From assembly GCA_002105175.1 (NCBI GenBank), contig MCGE01000016.1, positions 565,501 to 629,500 of the forward strand: a stretch of DNA of 64,000 nucleotides, read 5' to 3'. Below, piece after piece: positions 2,720 through 12,311 of this stretch (position 1 is the first letter of the stretch; every line of letters begins with the position of its first letter). Origin of the DNA: Absidia repens (lineage: Eukaryota > Mucoromycota > Mucoromycetes > Mucorales > Cunninghamellaceae). The notes under the pieces are model-generated. The model worked only from the letters and a program-made list of their open reading frames with translations, was not told where the DNA came from and did no database searches. A program made the translations under genes and the position numbers.

Positions 2720-3620
2720 TCATGGTGGGGTTCTGTAAAGAAAATGTACGGTAGGACACTCACAATACAACTATAATAATGGCTTTTAGTATTACATATC
2801 TAATGGTCGGAGGATAACTAATAAAAAAGATACATTTTATTGAAGTATATCAGGTAAAGACTAAACTGAAGGCGAGAGGTTTATTGTAACAAGGGATTCA
2901 ATGAATTAACATGAGCAGAATATTGAGCGAGTTGAAGGATGGTCGGCACCAAGCTAAAAGAACCACTGTAAAAAAGGATCTAATTTACTGTATAAGTGAC
3001 AATAAAGATGAGAAAGACTAAAGGGATATATATTTATTAAAACACAACGACGGTCAACACTAATCAAAAGGAAAGTCATCATAGTAAAAAGGAGTCTACT
3101 TTACAAGAATTGAAAGTGACTTATGGGACATTTTTTTATCGAAGGAAATACAAATAGATGAATTTTATCGAAATACAAATACAAAATATAAACAAACTAA
3201 CACTAAACTAAGCTATTGAAAACTGGAAACGGTCAACTAACGGTGTTTCCAAATCTTGAACCCAAAATGAAAGGGCTTCCTCATGCATGTTGTAATTCCT
3301 GAAATGAAAGCCCTTCTAAACTAGCCCTAACACTATTCTAAGATCACCATAACCTCAGAATAGTTGAATGGTGACTGAAAAAAAAAAAAAAAAAAAATGA
3401 AGGGAAAAAGAAAATGAAAAGAAAGAGAGACGAGAAAAAAAAAGCAGGAGTAAATAAAAAAAAAACATCCACGTGGGCGGGATTTGAAATGCTCTTTTGT
3501 AATGTATTATGGTGAAGAGAATACAGGTTTTCCGGTTGAACTTGAGACGTTTTGTTTTTTTTTTTAGACGAGAATAAACTCCGCTCGAGACGATTCAGCT
3601 TTCAATTTTGGACATTTTAT
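2720..3620 (+). repeat. dispersed repeat family R1, copy A
   Basis: The first of five related copies. It shows the family order: an AAAAAAGATACATTTTATTGAAG-like start (about 2825), a purine-rich middle, a block resembling CCAAAATGAAAGGG...CATGCATGTTGTAAT...CTTCTAAACTAG (about 3260-3320), a poly(A)/GA-rich stretch, and the CACGTGGGCGGGATTTGAA box at 3470. It has no reading frame of note. Boundaries are approximate because divergence is high. Probably a non-autonomous transposable element; alternatives are an LTR remnant or an expressed non-coding repeat. Confidence 0.6.
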
Positions 3621-3943
3621 TCAACATAGTTTAGACTAAATGATAATATGGTTTAGACAATCGTATATTCTATTTTAAACCGATCCCTTTTTGAAGACAC
3701 CTCTCCCAATATGTTTTTGCGTGCCTAATGGTTTACCCCTCTTTCTTTTTAGTATATTAAATTAATAAACGCTCTGGCGCTCCGCTGGAGCTTTTGGAAA
3801 TCTTTCGATTTACTGGGTGTCACAGTTTTTTTTATTAAAGTGTGGGTTTTGATGGGATAGGATTAAAGCCTCCGCCCTTTCGCACTTTGGTGGGCAGCCC
3901 CTTGGGGCCCATCCGTCGTTGTTCAGCGCTCAGTCAGGACTTT

Positions 3944-3984
<41 letters not shown>

Positions 3985-4132
3985 GCTGGTATGTACTCTT
4001 GTGGTATTACAAATAAATAAAATCTATCTTCTATTGAAACCAACCAAATGACTTTTTTGTTTGATGATGATGATGTTACCGGTCTCTTTTTTTGTACGCA
4101 ACATTCGAAACACTTCCACATTTTTACTTCAG

Positions 4133-4194
<62 letters not shown>

Positions 4195-4540
4195 ACTACT
4201 AAATAGCTTCTGGGGGAGCTTCCTCCAACAGAAGCAAAGATATGCCATTATCACCTCGGACGCAGCAGCATTTCAGTATGAAGCAGGGGAGATTGTGCTA
4301 TAAGAGAATAGTATGAGTGTACTGTTTTGTTGAAGGCAATGTTAGTATCCTCTTCATCTCTTATATGTTACTATACAGTATATTGTCTCTTATTTTACTA
4401 TTACCGTCTATTTTATCATGTCACTGCAATAAAGAAAATCACATTTGAAAAAATATTTGTGTACGCTGTTTTTGTGGAATACGTGTGTTGTTTTCGTGTT
4501 AAATATACTATTCTTTGAGGGATATGTGTTGTTATATATT
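3621..4540. other. intergenic DNA with a GC-rich island and homopolymer tracts
   Basis: Mostly AT-rich. A small GC-rich island at 3765-3945 can fold locally (GCTC...GAGC around CGCTCCGC near 3770-3792; GCCCCTTGGGGC at 3897-3908). A poly(T) tract at about 3946-3983 and a 60-base poly(A) run at 4133-4192 follow. No gene recognised. Confidence 0.45.
4133..4192 (+). repeat. 60-base poly(A) tract
   Basis: An uninterrupted run of A, the longest homopolymer in the window. It may mark the 3' end of a retrotransposed copy, or be simple slippage; no coding remnant is recognisable directly upstream. Confidence 0.9.
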
Positions 4541-4655
4541 GTAGGGTATATGTTGTGTTGTTTGTAGGGTATATGTTGTGTTGTTTGTAGGATATATGTT
4601 GTGTTGTTTGTAGGGTATATGTTGTGTTGTTTGTAGGGTATGTGTTGATTTGTTT
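4541..4655 (+). repeat. 23-bp minisatellite
   Basis: The unit GTAGGGTATATGTTGTGTTG plus TTT is repeated at 4541, 4564, 4587, 4610 and 4633 with an exact 23-base step and only one or two substitutions per unit. Degraded units continue to about 4695. There are no spacers, so it is not a CRISPR array. Confidence 0.9.
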
Positions 4656-4877
4656 TTGTAGAGTATGTATTATATTGCTTTGTAGGGTATAGTAGCGTTG
4701 TGTTGTGGAAGAGAAATACTCACAGTAGACATGTTGTATTTGTGAATACTCGTATGAACGGGGAGGAGGGGAAATGGGGTGTTTGTAAAAAGATGACTCA
4801 TACAATATCTTCCTCTATTGGCTGATTGGGGTATATTTGTAACAATATAAATCAACTGAATCTTCCATTGACAACAA

Positions 4878-5150
4878 AACTACGGTGCTACTAAATTGGA
4901 ATGTCTCGCCCTAGTATGGAGCCTGCAACTATTCAGGCCTTATTTACTTGGCAAAAAATTCACTGTCATATCAGACCACTCACCTTTACGATGGTTGGTA
5001 CAATCACCCAAAGTATCTGGTATTGTAGCAAGATGGATCCAATACTTGGCTGAATATGACTTTGAAATCAAGTATCGAACTGGACGAAAACAGGAAGCCG
5101 CTGATTTCCTATCCGGTCTAGGATACTGGTCGATCATCATTTTTATTTTT
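4878..5150 (+). pseudogene. fragment of Ty3/gypsy Pol, RNase H domain
   Basis: The frame through 4881 reads YGATKLECLALVWSLQ..., then SDHSPLRWL, WIQYLAEYDFEIKYRTG and KQEAADFLS. This is the conserved RNase H core of Ty3/gypsy (Metaviridae) polyproteins: the DH.PL motif, the F.I.YR.G motif and the final D. A stop lies just upstream at 4869, and after LSGLGYW the frame runs into low-complexity DNA. No reverse transcriptase, integrase or LTR is attached, so it is a truncated relic of under 100 codons. It lies about 550 bp before the Fanzor gene. Confidence 0.85.
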
Positions 5151-5691
5151 ATATTTTTTTATCACGTTCAGTACTCGCCGCCACTTTATTTTTTAGTATA
5201 AATACCCCACCTTTCCCCCGCCAATTCTCTTTTTTCTTAAGCTATCTATTATCATATATTTATCTCAATCTTTTTTATAAAATTCAGTACAAAGGCTTTT
5301 AACCACCAAACCACTGTCTTATTTTTATTTTGTTTCTATCGTCTATATAGAAACTTTCTTTTATTTTTTGTGACTACAAGTCCTCTTTTTTATTTTTACT
5401 GTGTGTTATACACTTATTTTTATTGAACCAACAAAGGTCAATACTTTTCTTTTTTTTATTTTACTCTTTCAAGTTTATTTTTTATAAACTTTCTCTACAG
5501 TTGGACTTTATCTACAAAAGTTCTGGTGCTCACTACTCTCAATTCTATTTTTGTCCGATTCAGGAACAAGTCATTTCAAATTCCGCCCAAGGAACAATCC
5601 GTTGGACTAAAATCACAAATTTAGCCGCAACAGCGTTTTGTTTTCTTTTCTTTTTAACAAACACCAATACCTCCAGGTCCCTATCATCAGT
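5151..5691 (+). promoter_or_regulatory. putative promoter and leader of the Fanzor gene
   Basis: T-rich DNA with a good TATA box (TATAAATA at 5197-5204, followed by CCCC) about 490 bp before the Fanzor ATG. The leader is pyrimidine-rich and contains ATG-initiated short frames (for example at 5423 and 5638), so either an upstream intron or leaky initiation is likely. Assignment to the Fanzor gene is by position only. Confidence 0.4.
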
Positions 5692-8600
5692 ATGGCCGCC
5701 AATCAATTGATTATCGAGGATGACTTGCTTAGATTGATGGATATGACACAGGATGATGTTATTCAACCCCTAACAACTTATGAAGGAATGACAGTTTTTG
5801 ATATCATTATGTACAAAAAACGGTGGAAACGACAGCAAGCGAACCTGCGTCATGGTAAGTGCTAAACAAATTAGTATGAGAAACAAGGTAATCTTACTAA
5901 TCTTTCTTTTTTTACACAAAAAGCTGAAGATGAACAAAGACGTGCGGAAAACGATGATGACACCGACAGTGATAACAGCGACGGTGATGCCTCCTCATTA
6001 TCAACTCGCGGCTCAACTTCAAGACAGTTGGCTGGGTCCAAGCGTAAGCGCAAACAAGGTACTCTCGAAAAGGTGGCCAAACGGGGTGGCTCTTTAATGC
6101 GAAAAAAAATTGGTCAAAAGAAATCAGTCCGTCCTTGCCCGGTTTGCCTTGAACATCATAGCTCTGAAACAGCAACCACTCATTCACGATCAACAAGTCG
6201 AAAATGCCCCTTCCGAAAACTGACTCGACTACAACAAGTACAACAAGAATTGGGTAAAACGACGACGGTTTGCCGGAAACAGGGACTGAAATCATTGCTG
6301 CGGATTGAAAACCAGGATCATCATCAACAAATTCTACAGGGAATCAGCGACGTTGTTTCGTACACTCGGGATACAGTCATAAAAGTGCACCTATTTATTA
6401 CATTTTATCTATATCACTCTTTGACGAACCACCAACCCATACCAAAACAGCTCTTTACGATGAGTTTTTTTTATGCTATCTTTCAAAAAGTCACTGGCAG
6501 CAACATCACCATCAACAATTCAATCAGCATGGATTTGGCGACAAATATCGACAATGTGTATCAGCAACTGAATCCAACAGAAGCGTCCCGACAAGCTTTT
6601 CTTGTACGAAAAATTCATGGAAAAGCGTATGCGAATATTCTGACTCCAATGTTGGCCCAATATGCGACAAAATTTACAAATCGAATTGTTGAGGACTTTA
6701 CGCAGTGGATGTCAAATTTATTTTCTTTACGTCTTCGTCAGCGAATGGTGCAACGCCAGAACCAACAGCATCAACAACAACAGCAACAGCAACTTCTCCA
6801 GCAGCAGGATCCTGAAGAACAAATATTAGAACAGGAACAACAAAAGGTAAGTAATACAATACAATAAAAGTATACAGAGTTCAATGTTTGATACTTACCG
6901 CCATGTATTGTATTCATAGGATTCGATTGAAAAAACTTGCAACGTATTGGGGCTTCACATCCTAGCAAGTCTGGTCAACAATGCGGATATTGCAATCGTG
7001 TCTTCTGATGCTTTGTCTCAACCTGGCATTACTGACGAAATAAAAGACGATGTAAATGCTGTACTAGATGATGGGAAAGTGGACCTTTTGTGTGTTTATA
7101 ATATGGCTGCTCTACAAGAACAAACTGATTCACTTGGAAAAGAAGTTGAAAATGCATACGGTGTTCTTCATGGACGTATCATGAACAGGGAAACCGGCCT
7201 TCGATCAGTCATTGCAATCGCTATCTCAAGAATTGGAACAATGTCAACCGAAGTAGCGGAAACCACGGATCCCACGATTGTTGCCTCTTTGATCCAATTA
7301 TCCACCAGACTCCACGAACTGCTTCGTCTGTACCAAGCTTCAACCCAATTGCTATTGAATATCTCAAATCACTTCGGTTTTCAACACCAGCTAAACGACG
7401 AACGATGGAATGACAACATGGTGAACGGTGTGATGACATCTTTGCAAACGATGATGGAACAGCAAGTGGATGGCGCAGATAACATCAACCAGGAAACGCA
7501 AGAACTTCTTGACTCCTTGGATCTTGCTATTATGGAGGTACGGCCCTTACTTGATGATCTCGGCGCTCGTCAGGATACATACACCAACCCACATCGCCAA
7601 TTTTTGGAAGCTCAACGACAATACTTCGACAACGATCAACTTGGAAATCGTCATTTGCTGAATAATTTGATCAACTATTGTCAACAGGCGGGGGCACCGG
7701 CAACATTGCTAGACAATTCGACTACGCAACTGTCAACTGGATATATTTCTCGCCATTGCGATATCTTCACGAAGTATGGTTATAACATTGTCCGCGCTTT
7801 TGACCAACACAATATCGACACCGCAAATGCAGTAAACCCAGTACAGACCGTAGTTCCTCGCACTTGGTGCTTTGAAGTAGTACGTGGACTTGATGAAAAC
7901 TCAAGAATAGGTCGACGCCGACGGTCAAAATTGGCAAAAACAATACAACAAATTATACCGACAAACGACAACCTTGACCGCCAACAATTATCGTACCTGT
8001 CGGACTTGTCATTTACATCCTTACAAAACACCATCGCCAACACTCGCCAGCAAATTCTTCATTCTGTTGAATACTTACAGGACCCTGAACACCACCAGGA
8101 TTTGTTACCAAGATGCTTCACACCTGGAGTCGATCACTTGATGAAAAAGCAACAAGTTTACAACTTGGTGCCGAAACCGTCCTACACAAAGAAAAGCATA
8201 AAAATCGACAATACATCCATGGGGCAAATCCTTCGATCAGTGGGCCTCACACAATATATCCATGGCGATGAAACATTGGCGAACATCCTCAATGTTGACA
8301 AAATCAGAAAAGGGAATGGGATGATATTTGCAAAGTACATCGTGACGAACGGATTTTCTGTATCAATCCCTTTCGACAAACCGATTCGAAATGATGCTGC
8401 TCTTCCTGATTTGCAACCTGAAGACTTCCAAGCGTGGGAATTCCCGTATTTGAATGTGTGGGGTGTAGATCCTGGCATGAATTCAATCTATGTGGCTAGC
8501 AATGGTTCAAGTGATGACGTTTACAATTACGCAGTGGAACAGGAGGGTAAGTGGCTATGGTGGTTTACTACAAGAACTATTGTTTATGTATTGACTTTTT

Positions 8601-8825
8601 CTTTTTTTCTTTGGTTTATTTACTAATATCGTTGCTAGGAGCTGCCCAAGATGATGATGCCGCCCAAGATGATGATGCCGCCCAAGATGACGATGCCGCC
8701 CAAGATGATGATGCCGCCCACGCTGATGTTGCCGCCCACGCTGATGCTGATGCTCAAGTCGATACTGACCACGAACAAGAGAGTAATTGAAAAGGACATC
8801 TAATGGCAGACAGACGACATTCTAA

Positions 8826-8857
<32 letters not shown>

Positions 8858-9786
8858 GTGTGTGTTAAGGTCATGAAATTCGACGTATATCCTCTATCGA
8901 ATATTATACTCGTGCAGGCTTCAGAAAAACGTCCAACAAAATCAACATGTTGAAAACTGAGGCAATTCGTACTGTGGAGGCGCAAATAACGACAAACAAA
9001 ACCACTGATTTGGAAGGGATACAAGCATACATTCAATCATCATTACAAGCCCTAGGTCCTTTGACTGAATTTTATGGGCAAGAGGCTATTCTCGGTCTGC
9101 AGTTCGCCAATTACCAAGGAAGACAAAAGATGGACGCCGAATTGGTAAATGTGTTGATTGATGGCGGCCACAAGTACAGACCTCCACCAGGTGCCATGGA
9201 AAGATCATCAAATATTGGCCAGACACAACAAAGAAGACGACGACGAACAAGGTCTTACGATACTGATGATCCACCTCCTCTTCCTCCGCCGCCGCCGAAG
9301 CTTAGGCAAGTTTATTTGATTTAAAAATGTATATGCAAGGCATAATAACATCTGTTGTACATATTTCTTATACATAGAAAATGGAAAAAGGCTCCCATAA
9401 ACAATGACAAAGACAAGGTACCGATTGTGGTTTTCGGCGACGCAAAGTTCGGCAGAAATAAAAAAGGCGAAGGATCCCTTGCTGACAAGTGTCGACATCT
9501 TTTGTCAAAGGCGGACAAGTCTGGGAAACTTGTTTTTGTGAATATGGATGAATATCGTACGTCGCAAGTATGCTCAAAATGTGGTCACAGAAAGCTCACG
9601 AACGCGGTGATTACCCGACCTGGTGAACAGGCGAAACGTATGTACGCAGTGTTAGCGTGTCGTCGCTGTAACACTGTGTGGCAACGGGACACCAATGCAT
9701 CTCGGAATCTGCGCGCCGCTTTTATGAACCTTGTCACTGCTGGAAGACGCCCTGGGCTGTTGGCAAGACCGACCACTGAACAATAA
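5692..9786 (+). CDS. Fanzor-type putative RNA-guided DNA nuclease (eukaryotic TnpB relative), intact
   Basis: Six exons, 5692..5854, 5924..6846, 6920..8546, 8639..8782, 8870..9305 and 9378..9786, join in phase to 1233 aa with no stop. The C-terminal third carries the OrfB/TnpB hallmarks: RuvC-I GVDPGMNSIYVA (Asp about 879), then RRISSIEYYTRAGFRKT typical of Fanzors, RuvC-II region VVFGDAKFG...KKGEGS (Asp 1119, Glu 1129), zinc ribbon CSKC/CRRC (1163, 1166, 1192, 1195) and RuvC-III RDTNASRNL (Asp 1202). Family knowledge: Fanzors cut DNA guided by an omega RNA encoded at the gene's 3' side. The N-terminus is acidic then basic, with CPVC...KCPFRK (about 100-130), and residues 300-870 are helical and unrecognised. 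The last intron uses a GC donor (GCAAGT at 9306). ATG 5692 was chosen as the first that keeps a compact exon 1; upstream in-frame codons from 5638 are pyrimidine-rich leader. Confidence 0.85.
8642..8736 (+). repeat. in-frame 18-bp tandem repeat encoding AAQDDD
   Basis: GCCGCCCAAGATGATGAT-type units, four near-perfect, then two diverged ones (AAHADV, AAHADA). They lie inside Fanzor exon 4, directly after the RuvC-I segment. The unit length is a multiple of three, so copy changes would not break the frame. Confidence 0.9.
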
Positions 9787-10065
9787 TCCACATAACAAAT
9801 ATGTGTTGATGTATACACGTAAGTTACAAGAAAATGAAACACAAAGATATTTCATTGGACTCACACTTTCCTTTACTCTCATCTTGGCTCACCTGTTTGT
9901 CTCACCTACTTTTGCCTGTCCCAATTACCTTTTCCCTTCATCCCAATTTATTTTACTTCCCTTCCCAACTTTATTTTGCCATCATCTAAAACCATTTTAC
10001 ACTCCGTCTCAAATTCAAGTTGACCAAGCTGTAATCCTCAGACTTAGAGCAGCACAGAATCATTA
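9787..10065 (+). other. 3' flank of the Fanzor gene; candidate omega-RNA region
   Basis: Lies between the Fanzor stop and the mariner insertion. Pyrimidine-rich (CTTTCCTTTACTCTCATC..., TTTTCCCTTCATCCC) with no frame of note. In described Fanzor and TnpB loci the guide RNA overlaps the 3' UTR, so this is where it should be. No clear hairpin or conserved boundary could be fixed by eye. If the mariner is removed, the flank would continue at 12017. Confidence 0.35.
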
Positions 10066-10252
10066 CAGTCATTCCGGAGTTAGATGTCGCACTTTTTGAA
10101 AATCATGTCGCTCCCCCGAAAAAAATCATGTCGCTCCCCCGAAAAAAAAATTGTCGCACTGCAAAAAAAAATTGTCGTACTGCAAAAAAAAATGTCGTGG
10201 TTTAAAAAAATGAAAGTCGTGCTTTTTGAAATAAAATGTGTATCAATGTCGC
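10066..10252 (+). repeat. left terminal inverted repeat of the mariner element
   Basis: Begins CAGTCATTCCGGAG and contains about eight spaced TGTCG boxes (TGTCGCAC, TGTCGCTC twice, TGTCGCACTGC, TGTCGTACTGC, TGTCGTGG, GTCGTGC, TGTCGCCC) separated by A-runs. It pairs with the reverse complement of the right end out to CAATGTCGC. The left end has one extra CATGTCGCTCCCCCGAAAAA unit compared with the right. Confidence 0.9.
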
Positions 10253-10328
10253 CCTTGTTTTTGGCTATCACCCCTTCATTTTTATTATTATTTGCCTTGT
10301 CTAAACTTCTGTTTTTGTGTTATTTACA

Positions 10329-11638
10329 ATGGAATTCAAAATTTTATTCGATGATGGTCAGGGGAACATTGTTGACGAGGATGGGAATGATCCTATGGCT
10401 GCTGATTATCCTGAACTAGATAAAGAACTGGAGATGCTCACAAACATGGAAATGTATTCAGCGTGTCAGTATGAACAACATCAACACAAGGAAGAACAAC
10501 AAGACGAAACTATGACGCAACAGCAACAGGTGAATACAGCTGCGAAACCCAAAAAGCGCCAATACAGCTCACACTCGGAAGACGTCAAATCTCTTGTCAT
10601 TGCATATCATCTTGAAAAACTTGTATCAGCAGCCAAGGCAGGAAAGGAATACGGGGTGGGACCGCGTGTAGCTCAACGATGGATAAAAGAATACAAGGAA
10701 TCTGGCAAGCAAGAGGAACCTGAGAATAACAAAACAAAACCTGGACCGAAGTCAAGATTAGGGGACGAACACAAACGACATCTTATTGAATTTATAGACG
10801 ACAATCCCTCGGCAATAATCGATCAGGCTGTTGATAGTCTCACCAAGCAATTTGAAGGACTCGTTATCAAGAAAACAGTGGTGCATAATTTCATGAAAAA
10901 TGAATGCAACTATCTCTTAAGAAGGCACATTTTCATCCTTTGGCAAGAAACAGCAATGCAACGATCGAAAAAAGATATGAATGGGTGTTAAAGTGGATGA
11001 ACACTGACATGGATTTCACTACTAACTGCGTTTTTATAGTTGAAGCGGCTTTCAACATCAACCAGCGTAGAACATTTGCATGGGCGGAAAAAGGCGATAC
11101 CCCCATTGTCAAGGTGGCGAAAACACGGGCGATATCTCATACAATACTGGGTGCCATATCTGTTGCAGGTGTTGTCAATATCAGTATTCGAAAACCACGG
11201 ACGAAACAGAAAAGGCAAAAGCGCGGTAGAAACGGAGAAAGCACAACGACAAAAAGGTCAAAAGGCACGACAACTGAACATTATGTGGACTATTTAATGG
11301 AGACTATGGATGTGATGGATCGATATCCCGAATTCAAAGGCTTTTATCTGGTTATGGACAACGCACCAATTCACAAGGCATTGGAAATTCAAACGATGAT
11401 TGAAGAACGTGGTTATCGTTGTATCTATCTTCCACCTTACTCCCCGGAACTAAATCCCATTGAACAATTTTGGTCCAAGGTGAAGTATTCAACAAAGCGA
11501 AGTCTGCTCATGGAAGACGAATGTCTCTCAACAAGGATCAAGGAAGCTTGCAATATGGTTACTCACAAGGATCTTCAAGGTTATGCCGGATATTCTGCTG
11601 CTCGTTTTGCCGATTGTCTCAAGAAATTACCGCTGTAG
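10329..11638 (+). pseudogene. Tc1/mariner (IS630-type) transposase, inactivated
   Basis: The N-terminal part (from 10329) has Gln-rich and helix-turn-helix-like sequence (SAAKAGKEYGVGPRVAQRWI). The C-terminal part, in another frame from about 10904, is the DDE domain: YEWVLKWM, VMDNAPIHK, LPPYSPELNPIEQFWSKVK, with 34 residues between the second Asp and the final Glu (DD34E). Two lesions are visible. First, the frame shifts by one base at about 10910, between KNECN and LSLKKAHFHP. Second, the first catalytic Asp, expected in the F(I/V)DEAAF motif, is Val (codon GTT at 11038-11040, FIVEAAFN). Either change alone should stop transposition, so the copy could move only if supplied with transposase from elsewhere. 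Confidence 0.9.
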
Positions 11639-11831
11639 ATTAGAAATTGTAGTTTAGTTACATTATATTATCGGCTTTATCAATTTTTTATTTGAGTCCC
11701 CAATAAAAACCGAATTGTCTTCATACTCTTTATACTCTAGTTGACTTGCGAACAATATAGATTAGTTATAGTGTGTAGTTGGGGTTTTTTTTATTTCATT
11801 CATTAGATACGCCAACCCAACGAAAATTAAT

Positions 11832-12014
11832 GCGACATTGAAAATCAAAAAATTGAACGAACATTTTATTTCAAAAAGCACGACTTTCATTTTGTTAAAC
11901 CACGACATTTTTTTTTTTGGTGTGCGACAATTTTTTTTTTGCAGTGCGACATTTTTTTTTTCGGAAGAGCGACATGATTTTCAAAAAGTGCGACATCTAA
12001 CTCCGGAATGACAT
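11832..12014 (-). repeat. right terminal inverted repeat of the mariner element
   Basis: Reverse complement of the left end, from GCGACATTG at 11832 to CTCCGGAATGACAT at 12014. It has the same series of CGACA boxes separated by T-runs but one unit fewer than the left end. Confidence 0.9.
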
Positions 12015-12311
12015 TACTGCACGTAAAAACTTTAACAGGACTGATTCGATCATGCAAGAAACACCCACAAATAAAAATATCGTAAGTCAATGTCAAAAAA
12101 AAAAAAAAAAGACTCCCTTATTCACCCTTCTATTTACTGAAAAGCGCCTCCTTTCTGTCGCAAAGTCTATAGCGGAGAATAAAATGCCTGCCCGAAAGAA
12201 AGAAAAATCTATTATTTCCTCCCTTTTTTTTTCTTTTTCTTTTTTGTCTTCCCCTATTCATATTTATTCATTGCCTATCTATTTACGCAACTTGTCCTAA
12301 CACTATAGGCA
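12015..12311. promoter_or_regulatory. CDC24 upstream region and possible leader intron
   Basis: Begins with the mariner target TA. GTAAGTCAATG at about 12081 followed by a T/C-rich stretch and ACTATAG just before the start codon look like the two ends of a 5'-UTR intron. No separate gene seen. Confidence 0.4.

Follow-up and report, generated by a model that had tools for sequence, protein, structure and literature searches.

Fanzor proteins characterised elsewhere cut DNA guided by RNA. Fanzor1-only elements with Mariner terminal inverted repeats (TIRs) and TA duplications were described by Bao and Jurka in 2013 (PMC3627910), and most Fanzor1 proteins are given as 600–700 amino acids long in the account of Xu et al. 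(PMC11423790). For the Fanzor1 of Spizellomyces punctatus (SpuFz1, PDB 8gkh) the TAM is reported as CATA, which ends in TA (PMC10432273), while Fanzor1 reRNAs as presented by Yoon et al. include the TIR and the TSD and run about 15 nt beyond (PMC10711439).

The DNA analysed here is a stretch of 64,000 nucleotides from the fungus Absidia repens, referred to as the window. It contains a Fanzor1 gene which, as modelled, is spliced from six exons and uninterrupted. Gene structure, Fanzor1 motifs, element ends and 12 copies were observed directly, and we consider it probable that this uninterrupted Fanzor1 is the only recognised gene, gypsy remnants aside, of an apparently non-autonomous, TA-inserting Tc1/mariner-like family which is moved in trans and whose Fanzor is RNA-guided. 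Contigs of the genome are denoted by C and a number, and copies are named after their contig.

Gene structure, Fanzor1 motifs and active site

The gene extends from 5692 to 9786, where the six exons join in phase to a frame of 1233 amino acids with no internal stop. A divergent paralogue on contig C1, described below, served for comparison.

5692..5854, + strand: Fanzor1 exon 1, placed by splice-site choice and joined frame
5924..6846, + strand: Fanzor1 exon 2, with a CPxC...H...C motif common to the C1 paralogue
6920..8546, + strand: Fanzor1 exon 3, a long segment without match in the C1 paralogue, followed by the RuvC-I Asp D879 at 8468–8470
8639..8782, + strand: Fanzor1 exon 4, with an acidic 18-bp tandem repeat (AAQDDD) within RuvC, the repeat number differing between copies
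8870..9305, + strand: Fanzor1 exon 5, RuvC, with a GC donor
9378..9786, + strand: Fanzor1 exon 6, with G1118/D1119, E1156 (9550–9552), the zinc ribbon C1163/C1166/C1192/C1195 (9571–9669) and D1202 (9688–9690)

The introns measure 69, 73, 92, 87 and 72 bp; four of the five donors are GT and the fifth is GC (AG/GCAAGT). Splice sites were picked from nearby GT/GC and AG dinucleotides, and of the 16 combinations that leave an open frame the set with the best consensus was taken, so that a few residues at the joins of exons 1/2, 3/4 and 5/6 are uncertain. All five donor/acceptor pairs are kept in each of the ten other full-length copies (11 including that of the window), the copy C15b being deleted across the first four introns.

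The zinc ribbon encoded by exon 6 passes the Pfam model of the TnpB/Cas12f zinc ribbon, PF07282, with 45.5 bits against a cut-off of 26.3, and NCBIfam TnpB models match the protein below their cut-offs. A two-row profile of this protein and the C1 paralogue, spanning residues 831–1233 of the former, was compared with solved chains. SpuFz1 scored best (2.8e-9; 39.4 bits over two stretches, 23.6 + 15.8) and PpFz1 second (9.3e-4; 21.2 bits), followed by Cas12m (0.011; 17.7 bits), TnpB (0.027; 16.4 bits) and the viral TnpB-like L79 (13.0 bits). GtFz1, whose structure is also solved according to Xu et al. (PMC11423790), is absent from the chains listed for this comparison, which is counted against the favoured explanation. 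Single-sequence searches of the PDB returned no Fanzor, neither with the full 1233-residue protein (two chance-level matches) nor with its C-terminal part (weak matches, Cas12m and TnpB foremost). Residues 740–1233, run against a collection of 5.8 billion proteins that may not cover fungi, gave no match at 1e-3 among the 7987 candidates scored, and in scans of viral contigs no match was confirmed.

The C-terminal Fanzor1 motif, D...[TS][TS]xx-C4 zinc finger-X(5,50)-RD as defined in PMC3627910 with a D-to-TS range of 125–275, is found in the window protein as D879, TS1159–1160, C1163/C1166/C1192/C1195 and RD1202. The last Cys is separated from RD by 5 residues, and the D-to-TS spacing of 279 exceeds the published range by four because of the acidic repeat insert. 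The DPG at RuvC-I, which PMC10711439 gives together with a catalytic Glu at an alternative position as a Fanzor signature, is present as GVDPG at 877–881. To judge from its sequence the protein belongs to Fanzor1, which it resembles more than TnpB, Cas12 or Fanzor2 by profile score among the solved chains.

An intact Fanzor gene in a single frame across six exons had already been proposed by the first-pass annotation. The same model was recovered here, the numbering of D879, D1119, E1129 and D1202 was reproduced, and neither stop nor frameshift was found. Its assignment to Fanzor agrees with the PF07282 match and with the rank of SpuFz1 and PpFz1 as the two best solved chains, ahead of TnpB and Cas12; the profile search it had suggested as a check has now been run and places the C-terminal part with Fanzor1 at the scores given above.

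Between the window protein and the C1 paralogue D879, G1118, D1119, E1156 and D1202 are conserved, as are the four cysteines, whereas E1129 faces a threonine in the paralogue. D1119/E1129, annotated earlier as the second catalytic motif, was rejected in that role on account of this threonine. In the structure-chain alignments E1156 (MDEYRTS) is matched by the Glu of DEYKTS in SpuFz1 and by that of DEFRTS in PpFz1. According to Xu et al. (PMC11423790) the loop that connects the fifth strand to the TNB domain bears the catalytic Glu, and metal binding in SpuFz1 is ascribed by Saito et al. to D383, E541 and D606, with N385 (PMC10432273). Because of the aligned Glu residues, the conservation in C1 and the location of the Glu before the TNB domain, the second catalytic residue is most likely E1156. 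Of the three RuvC motifs annotated earlier D879 and D1202 stand and the second is replaced, while the four zinc-ribbon cysteines are those of the domain that passes PF07282. An active RNA-guided nuclease is a plausible reading of the window Fanzor1.

With 1233 residues the window protein has about twice the usual size. Its local matches to the C1 paralogue are collinear and were used throughout, as a global alignment of the whole proteins mispairs the middle. One matched stretch ends at residue 339 and the next starts at 638; the 298 residues of the window protein in this gap correspond to 229 nt in C1. Conversely, C1 carries 1251 nt where the window protein has 3 residues, and is devoid of both the acidic repeat (about 893–954) and the arginine-/proline-rich stretch before 1098. 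By this comparison the extra length of the window Fanzor1 is made up of large insertions, and as those of the two proteins differ, they probably arose separately. A structure prediction of exon 3 alone was unusable, with a mean pLDDT of 35.

The paralogue (L041 and L039, G000:C1:1072400-1079600) is another Fanzor1 gene, divergent from that of the window; its exons are apparently long and open, it retains the catalytic residues and it has a large repeat-rich insertion. A frame beside it reads like ribosomal protein P2. A DDE_3 match lies ~3 kb upstream, the inverted repeats flanking the gene are weak (best 22/25), and partial relatives of the C1 family are found at two loci on contig C11.

The mobile element and its copies

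The gene is part of a larger unit with borders common to its copies:

3522..10033, + strand: whole mobile element including both flanking TA (element proper 3524–10031), borders common to the copies
3524..3549, + strand: left terminal inverted repeat, beginning with CAGGTTTTCC, 23 of 28 bases, TA included, matching the common right end
4872..5057 (frame on to 5201), + strand: Ty3/gypsy reverse transcriptase RNase H remnant, PF17917 with 67.7 bits, residues 1–62 of the frame
5147..5597, + strand: gypsy LTR, a 451-bp match at 97.8% in a fragment on contig C5
9787..10053, + strand: expected position of the guide RNA, by analogy only, the scaffold reaching 10033 and the guide comprising some 20 nt of flank beyond the TA
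10006..10031, − strand: right terminal inverted repeat, the window copy departing from the common form at 10024–10025, 7–8 bp inside the end

The element is 6.5 kb long with TA on both sides. The left border, TA followed by CAGGTTTTCC, is present in 8 of the 12 copies, two of them with a changed base; in C3 and C32 a tandem repeat modifies the left end, C25 extends to the end of its contig, and in C56 the end was not seen. The right border AAGCTG/TA is found in 12/12. All eight copies with paired ends have TA on both sides, the borders having been located partly by strings that include TA. The left-end pattern gave 16 matches at ≤3 mismatches and the right-end pattern 8, compared with 0 for reversed controls.

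The genome holds at least 13 PF07282 loci, namely the 12 close copies and a decayed relative on C34 which carries a stop and is 46.8% identical over residues 1098–1220. In the copy alignment, which was used for frame, identity and splice sites, the ten other full-length copies are 98.5–99.9% identical to the gene region of the window, and upstream pieces go down to about 92%. Family fragments are also found on C30, C39, C38 and C5. The left flanks differ in all eight copies with a standard left end, and the right flanks in 11 of 12, C32 and C34a agreeing for 106 bases. Nine pairs of flanks were joined and C32 was dropped, its left flank coming from another fragment; the joined flanks of three of the remaining eight (C12, C15b and C34a) span a related repeat. 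The best of the three is C15b, where the related repeat aligns through at 80% over 190 columns; at the site itself this repeat reads TG, and 7 bases immediately to the left are missing from it, which is counted against the favoured explanation.

By its TA duplication and terminal inverted repeats the element appears to fit the Tc1/mariner-like class, and it was filed as mariner-like and non-autonomous. The extent annotated at first pass, 5692–9786, covers the gene and falls short of the real unit (3522–10033); the tie to mobile elements assumed there is borne out by a gene that is cargo of a TA-flanked element with terminal inverted repeats in 12 copies, and these 12 loci equally show the gene to be resident in this genome.

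At the right end (window 10020–10031 and equivalents) short insertions or replacements starting about 4–8 bp inside the border occur in four of the 12 copies (C8, C12, C15a and C25), C79 is one base shorter, and seven share one form, with AAGCTG/TA constant; this variation looks like break-repair filler. The left ends of C32 (L034) and C3 (L035) contain a tandem repeat of ~26–28 bp within the inverted repeat, and both copies hold a long gypsy element, the C32 unit measuring 16.6 kb. C3 and C32 share their left flank and not their right, and the right flank of C32 is shared with C34a. We take this sharing as recombination or duplication, C3 and C32 not being clearly independent insertions; a 16.5-kb unit moving as a whole was considered for the two and dropped, as regional duplication explains the shared left flank equally well.

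Some 95 bp separate the end of the gypsy LTR from the start codon of the Fanzor; this end is uncertain, as a further 41-bp match follows it in C3 and C32. In these two copies the gypsy element is longer and its LTR pieces are paired, the second copy of the LTR end lying 6.7 kb upstream. A TATA-like box at 5196 is located inside the LTR, and the LTR may supply the Fanzor promoter.

Movement, guidance and state of the copies

In the explanation favoured here a transposase from another element would act in trans, cutting the Fanzor unit and pasting it at TA sites. The Fanzor, probably expressed from the gypsy LTR just upstream as promoter, would bind RNA read from the right end of the element into the flanking DNA. 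Guided by this RNA to the empty donor site it would cut beside an A/T-rich motif ending in TA, and repair of the cut donor site would restore the element.

The 3′ region after the gene is pyrimidine-rich. Folding of the right-end RNA is not stronger than that of shuffled sequences (z +1.43 for 9787–10033 and +0.37 for 9880–10033), which is counted against this explanation. Six nested folds of 80–300 nt ending at 10033 (z −0.74 to +1.82) have in common a hairpin whose outer stem comprises six pairs; this hairpin is missing from the minimum-energy folds of 9787–10033 and 9880–10033. The published RNA of PpFz1 is described as short with few pairs (PMC11423790). In a sliding scan the strongest fold windows were 4122–4271 (z −3.65, an A/T run) and 5322–5471 (inside the LTR; z −2.36 on one strand and −3.06 on the other), and both are away from the expected position of a Fanzor guide RNA. 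Counted in favour of the explanation, the left TA is preceded by two A/T bases in all ten insertions compared, comprising eight Fanzor copies and two short relatives; this bias may be a transposase or insertion preference in an A/T-rich genome. A bolder reading, which we hold to be rather doubtful, sees an outsized Fanzor1 lineage expanding by uptake of whole segments (the long segment and the acidic repeat in the window protein, the repeat-rich segment in its C1 relative), with a gypsy LTR adopted as promoter and a near-unstructured guide RNA using the mariner end as scaffold.

The frame is open in four of the 12 copies (C8, C25, C39 and C56), disrupted in seven and deleted in one, the losses counting against the favoured explanation. 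Outside the acidic repeat, and excluding C15b and 4 multiple changes, the 11 copies show 38 synonymous and 59 non-synonymous single changes. After correction for transitions the 38 synonymous of 97 changes compare with 28.6 expected (one-sided p 0.025), a rough figure, as the copies share ancestry; purifying selection appears weakly detectable, which also counts against the favoured explanation. A first pN/pS of 0.45 had ignored transition bias and was replaced by this weaker corrected test. These data bear on the strongest rival, by which the Fanzor1 is no longer a nuclease but a recently copied passenger whose frame is open only from the youth of the copies. The near-identity of ten full-length copies to the window gene region, the share of disrupted and deleted frames, the weak selection signal and the lack of a structured right-end RNA are as such a passenger would have them, whereas the full set of catalytic residues, the synonymous excess, though small, and the splice sites kept in 11/11 full-length copies argue against it. 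On balance the passenger is the less likely reading, yet one to be taken seriously.

Regarding the source of transposase for the favoured explanation, no candidate was recognised in those parts of the copies that were read, where open frames were inspected mostly by eye and few were domain-searched, and the family therefore looks non-autonomous. The genome contains 41 DDE_3 matches, 36 of them over the cut-off and some being pieces of one gene; DDE_3 genes elsewhere in the genome are possible helpers in trans. No transposase with matching ends was found, which is again counted against the explanation.

Two 0.76-kb elements (L037 and L038, on contigs C63 and C67) have the left end of the Fanzor element on both sides, and L037 has this end in common with the Fanzor element over the 99 bp compared. 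L037 includes a 124-aa piece of open frame without convincing Pfam domain and not similar to the neighbouring transposase; this piece may be the head of the missing enzyme. A search for the full transposase from this frame matched only the two short elements.

Downstream of the Fanzor unit lies a separate Tc1/mariner-type element (10061–12019) with inverted repeats at 10061–10239 and 11861–12019 and a DDE_3 transposase (10305–11638) split over two frames. Other copies, in which similarity ends near 10040, do not have it next to them, and since this element has its own inverted repeats its transposase was rejected as part of the Fanzor unit. That the Fanzor has no TA element of its own and belongs instead to this neighbour or to the gypsy element, as a DDE_3 transposase 0.5–1.9 kb downstream and gypsy sequence directly upstream might suggest, is highly improbable and already contradicted: the downstream element is separate, in C3 and C32 the paired LTR pieces of gypsy do not enclose the Fanzor, and element ends stand on either side of Fanzor and gypsy together. 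Still more improbable is a host-domesticated Fanzor with a cellular function, for which the intact frame and the apparently long open exons of the divergent C1 member could speak, as the window copy belongs to a mobile multicopy family and the C1 family has two partial relatives on C11; the suggestion at first pass that this copy is kept by the host is not upheld for the cargo of a 12-copy transposon family with 8/12 copies disrupted or deleted and selection weakly detectable.

Comparison with described Fanzor elements

PUl denotes an oomycete. Like Fanzor1-only Mariner elements of the PUl-4 type (PMC3627910), the element described here carries Fanzor1 as cargo without a transposase of its own and has TIRs and TA duplications; unlike PUl-4, as far as its description goes, it resides in a fungus, encodes a 1233-aa protein with five introns in the gene and has a gypsy LTR directly upstream. 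With MCi-2 of Mucor circinelloides, in the same account (PMC3627910), it shares about a dozen copies with a near-identical 3′ Fanzor part and differing 5′ parts, whereas MCi-2 is described with 11–12-bp duplications and no recognisable TIRs instead of TA and TIRs.

At the protein level SpuFz1 (PMC10432273) is the best profile match, with the Glu and zinc-ribbon region aligned, but the window protein greatly exceeds it in length, an acidic repeat being inserted into its RuvC and a longer insertion preceding that domain. PpFz1 of Parasitella parasitica (PDB 9cf0, PMC11423790) is likewise a Fanzor1 enlarged by a RuvC insertion. Residues 988–1142 of its chain, where the cyclophilin-binding FRI domain presumably lies, are without a matched stretch, and a five-proline run (1091–1095) in the window protein sits in the part comparable to this FRI region.

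Among the titles and abstract openings listed for Fanzor, no report of this Fanzor element appeared. The element offers a multicopy Fanzor1 family with known ends, natural flanks as candidate guides, and open as well as broken copies in one genome, and is thereby well suited to asking whether mariner-like transposons persist with the help of Fanzors. How much a Fanzor core tolerates may be judged in part from the size of the protein and from the insertions that the two families carry separately. The arrangement of a Fanzor1 in a mariner-like element has been known since 2013, and the locus described here is a new example of it, unusual in size.
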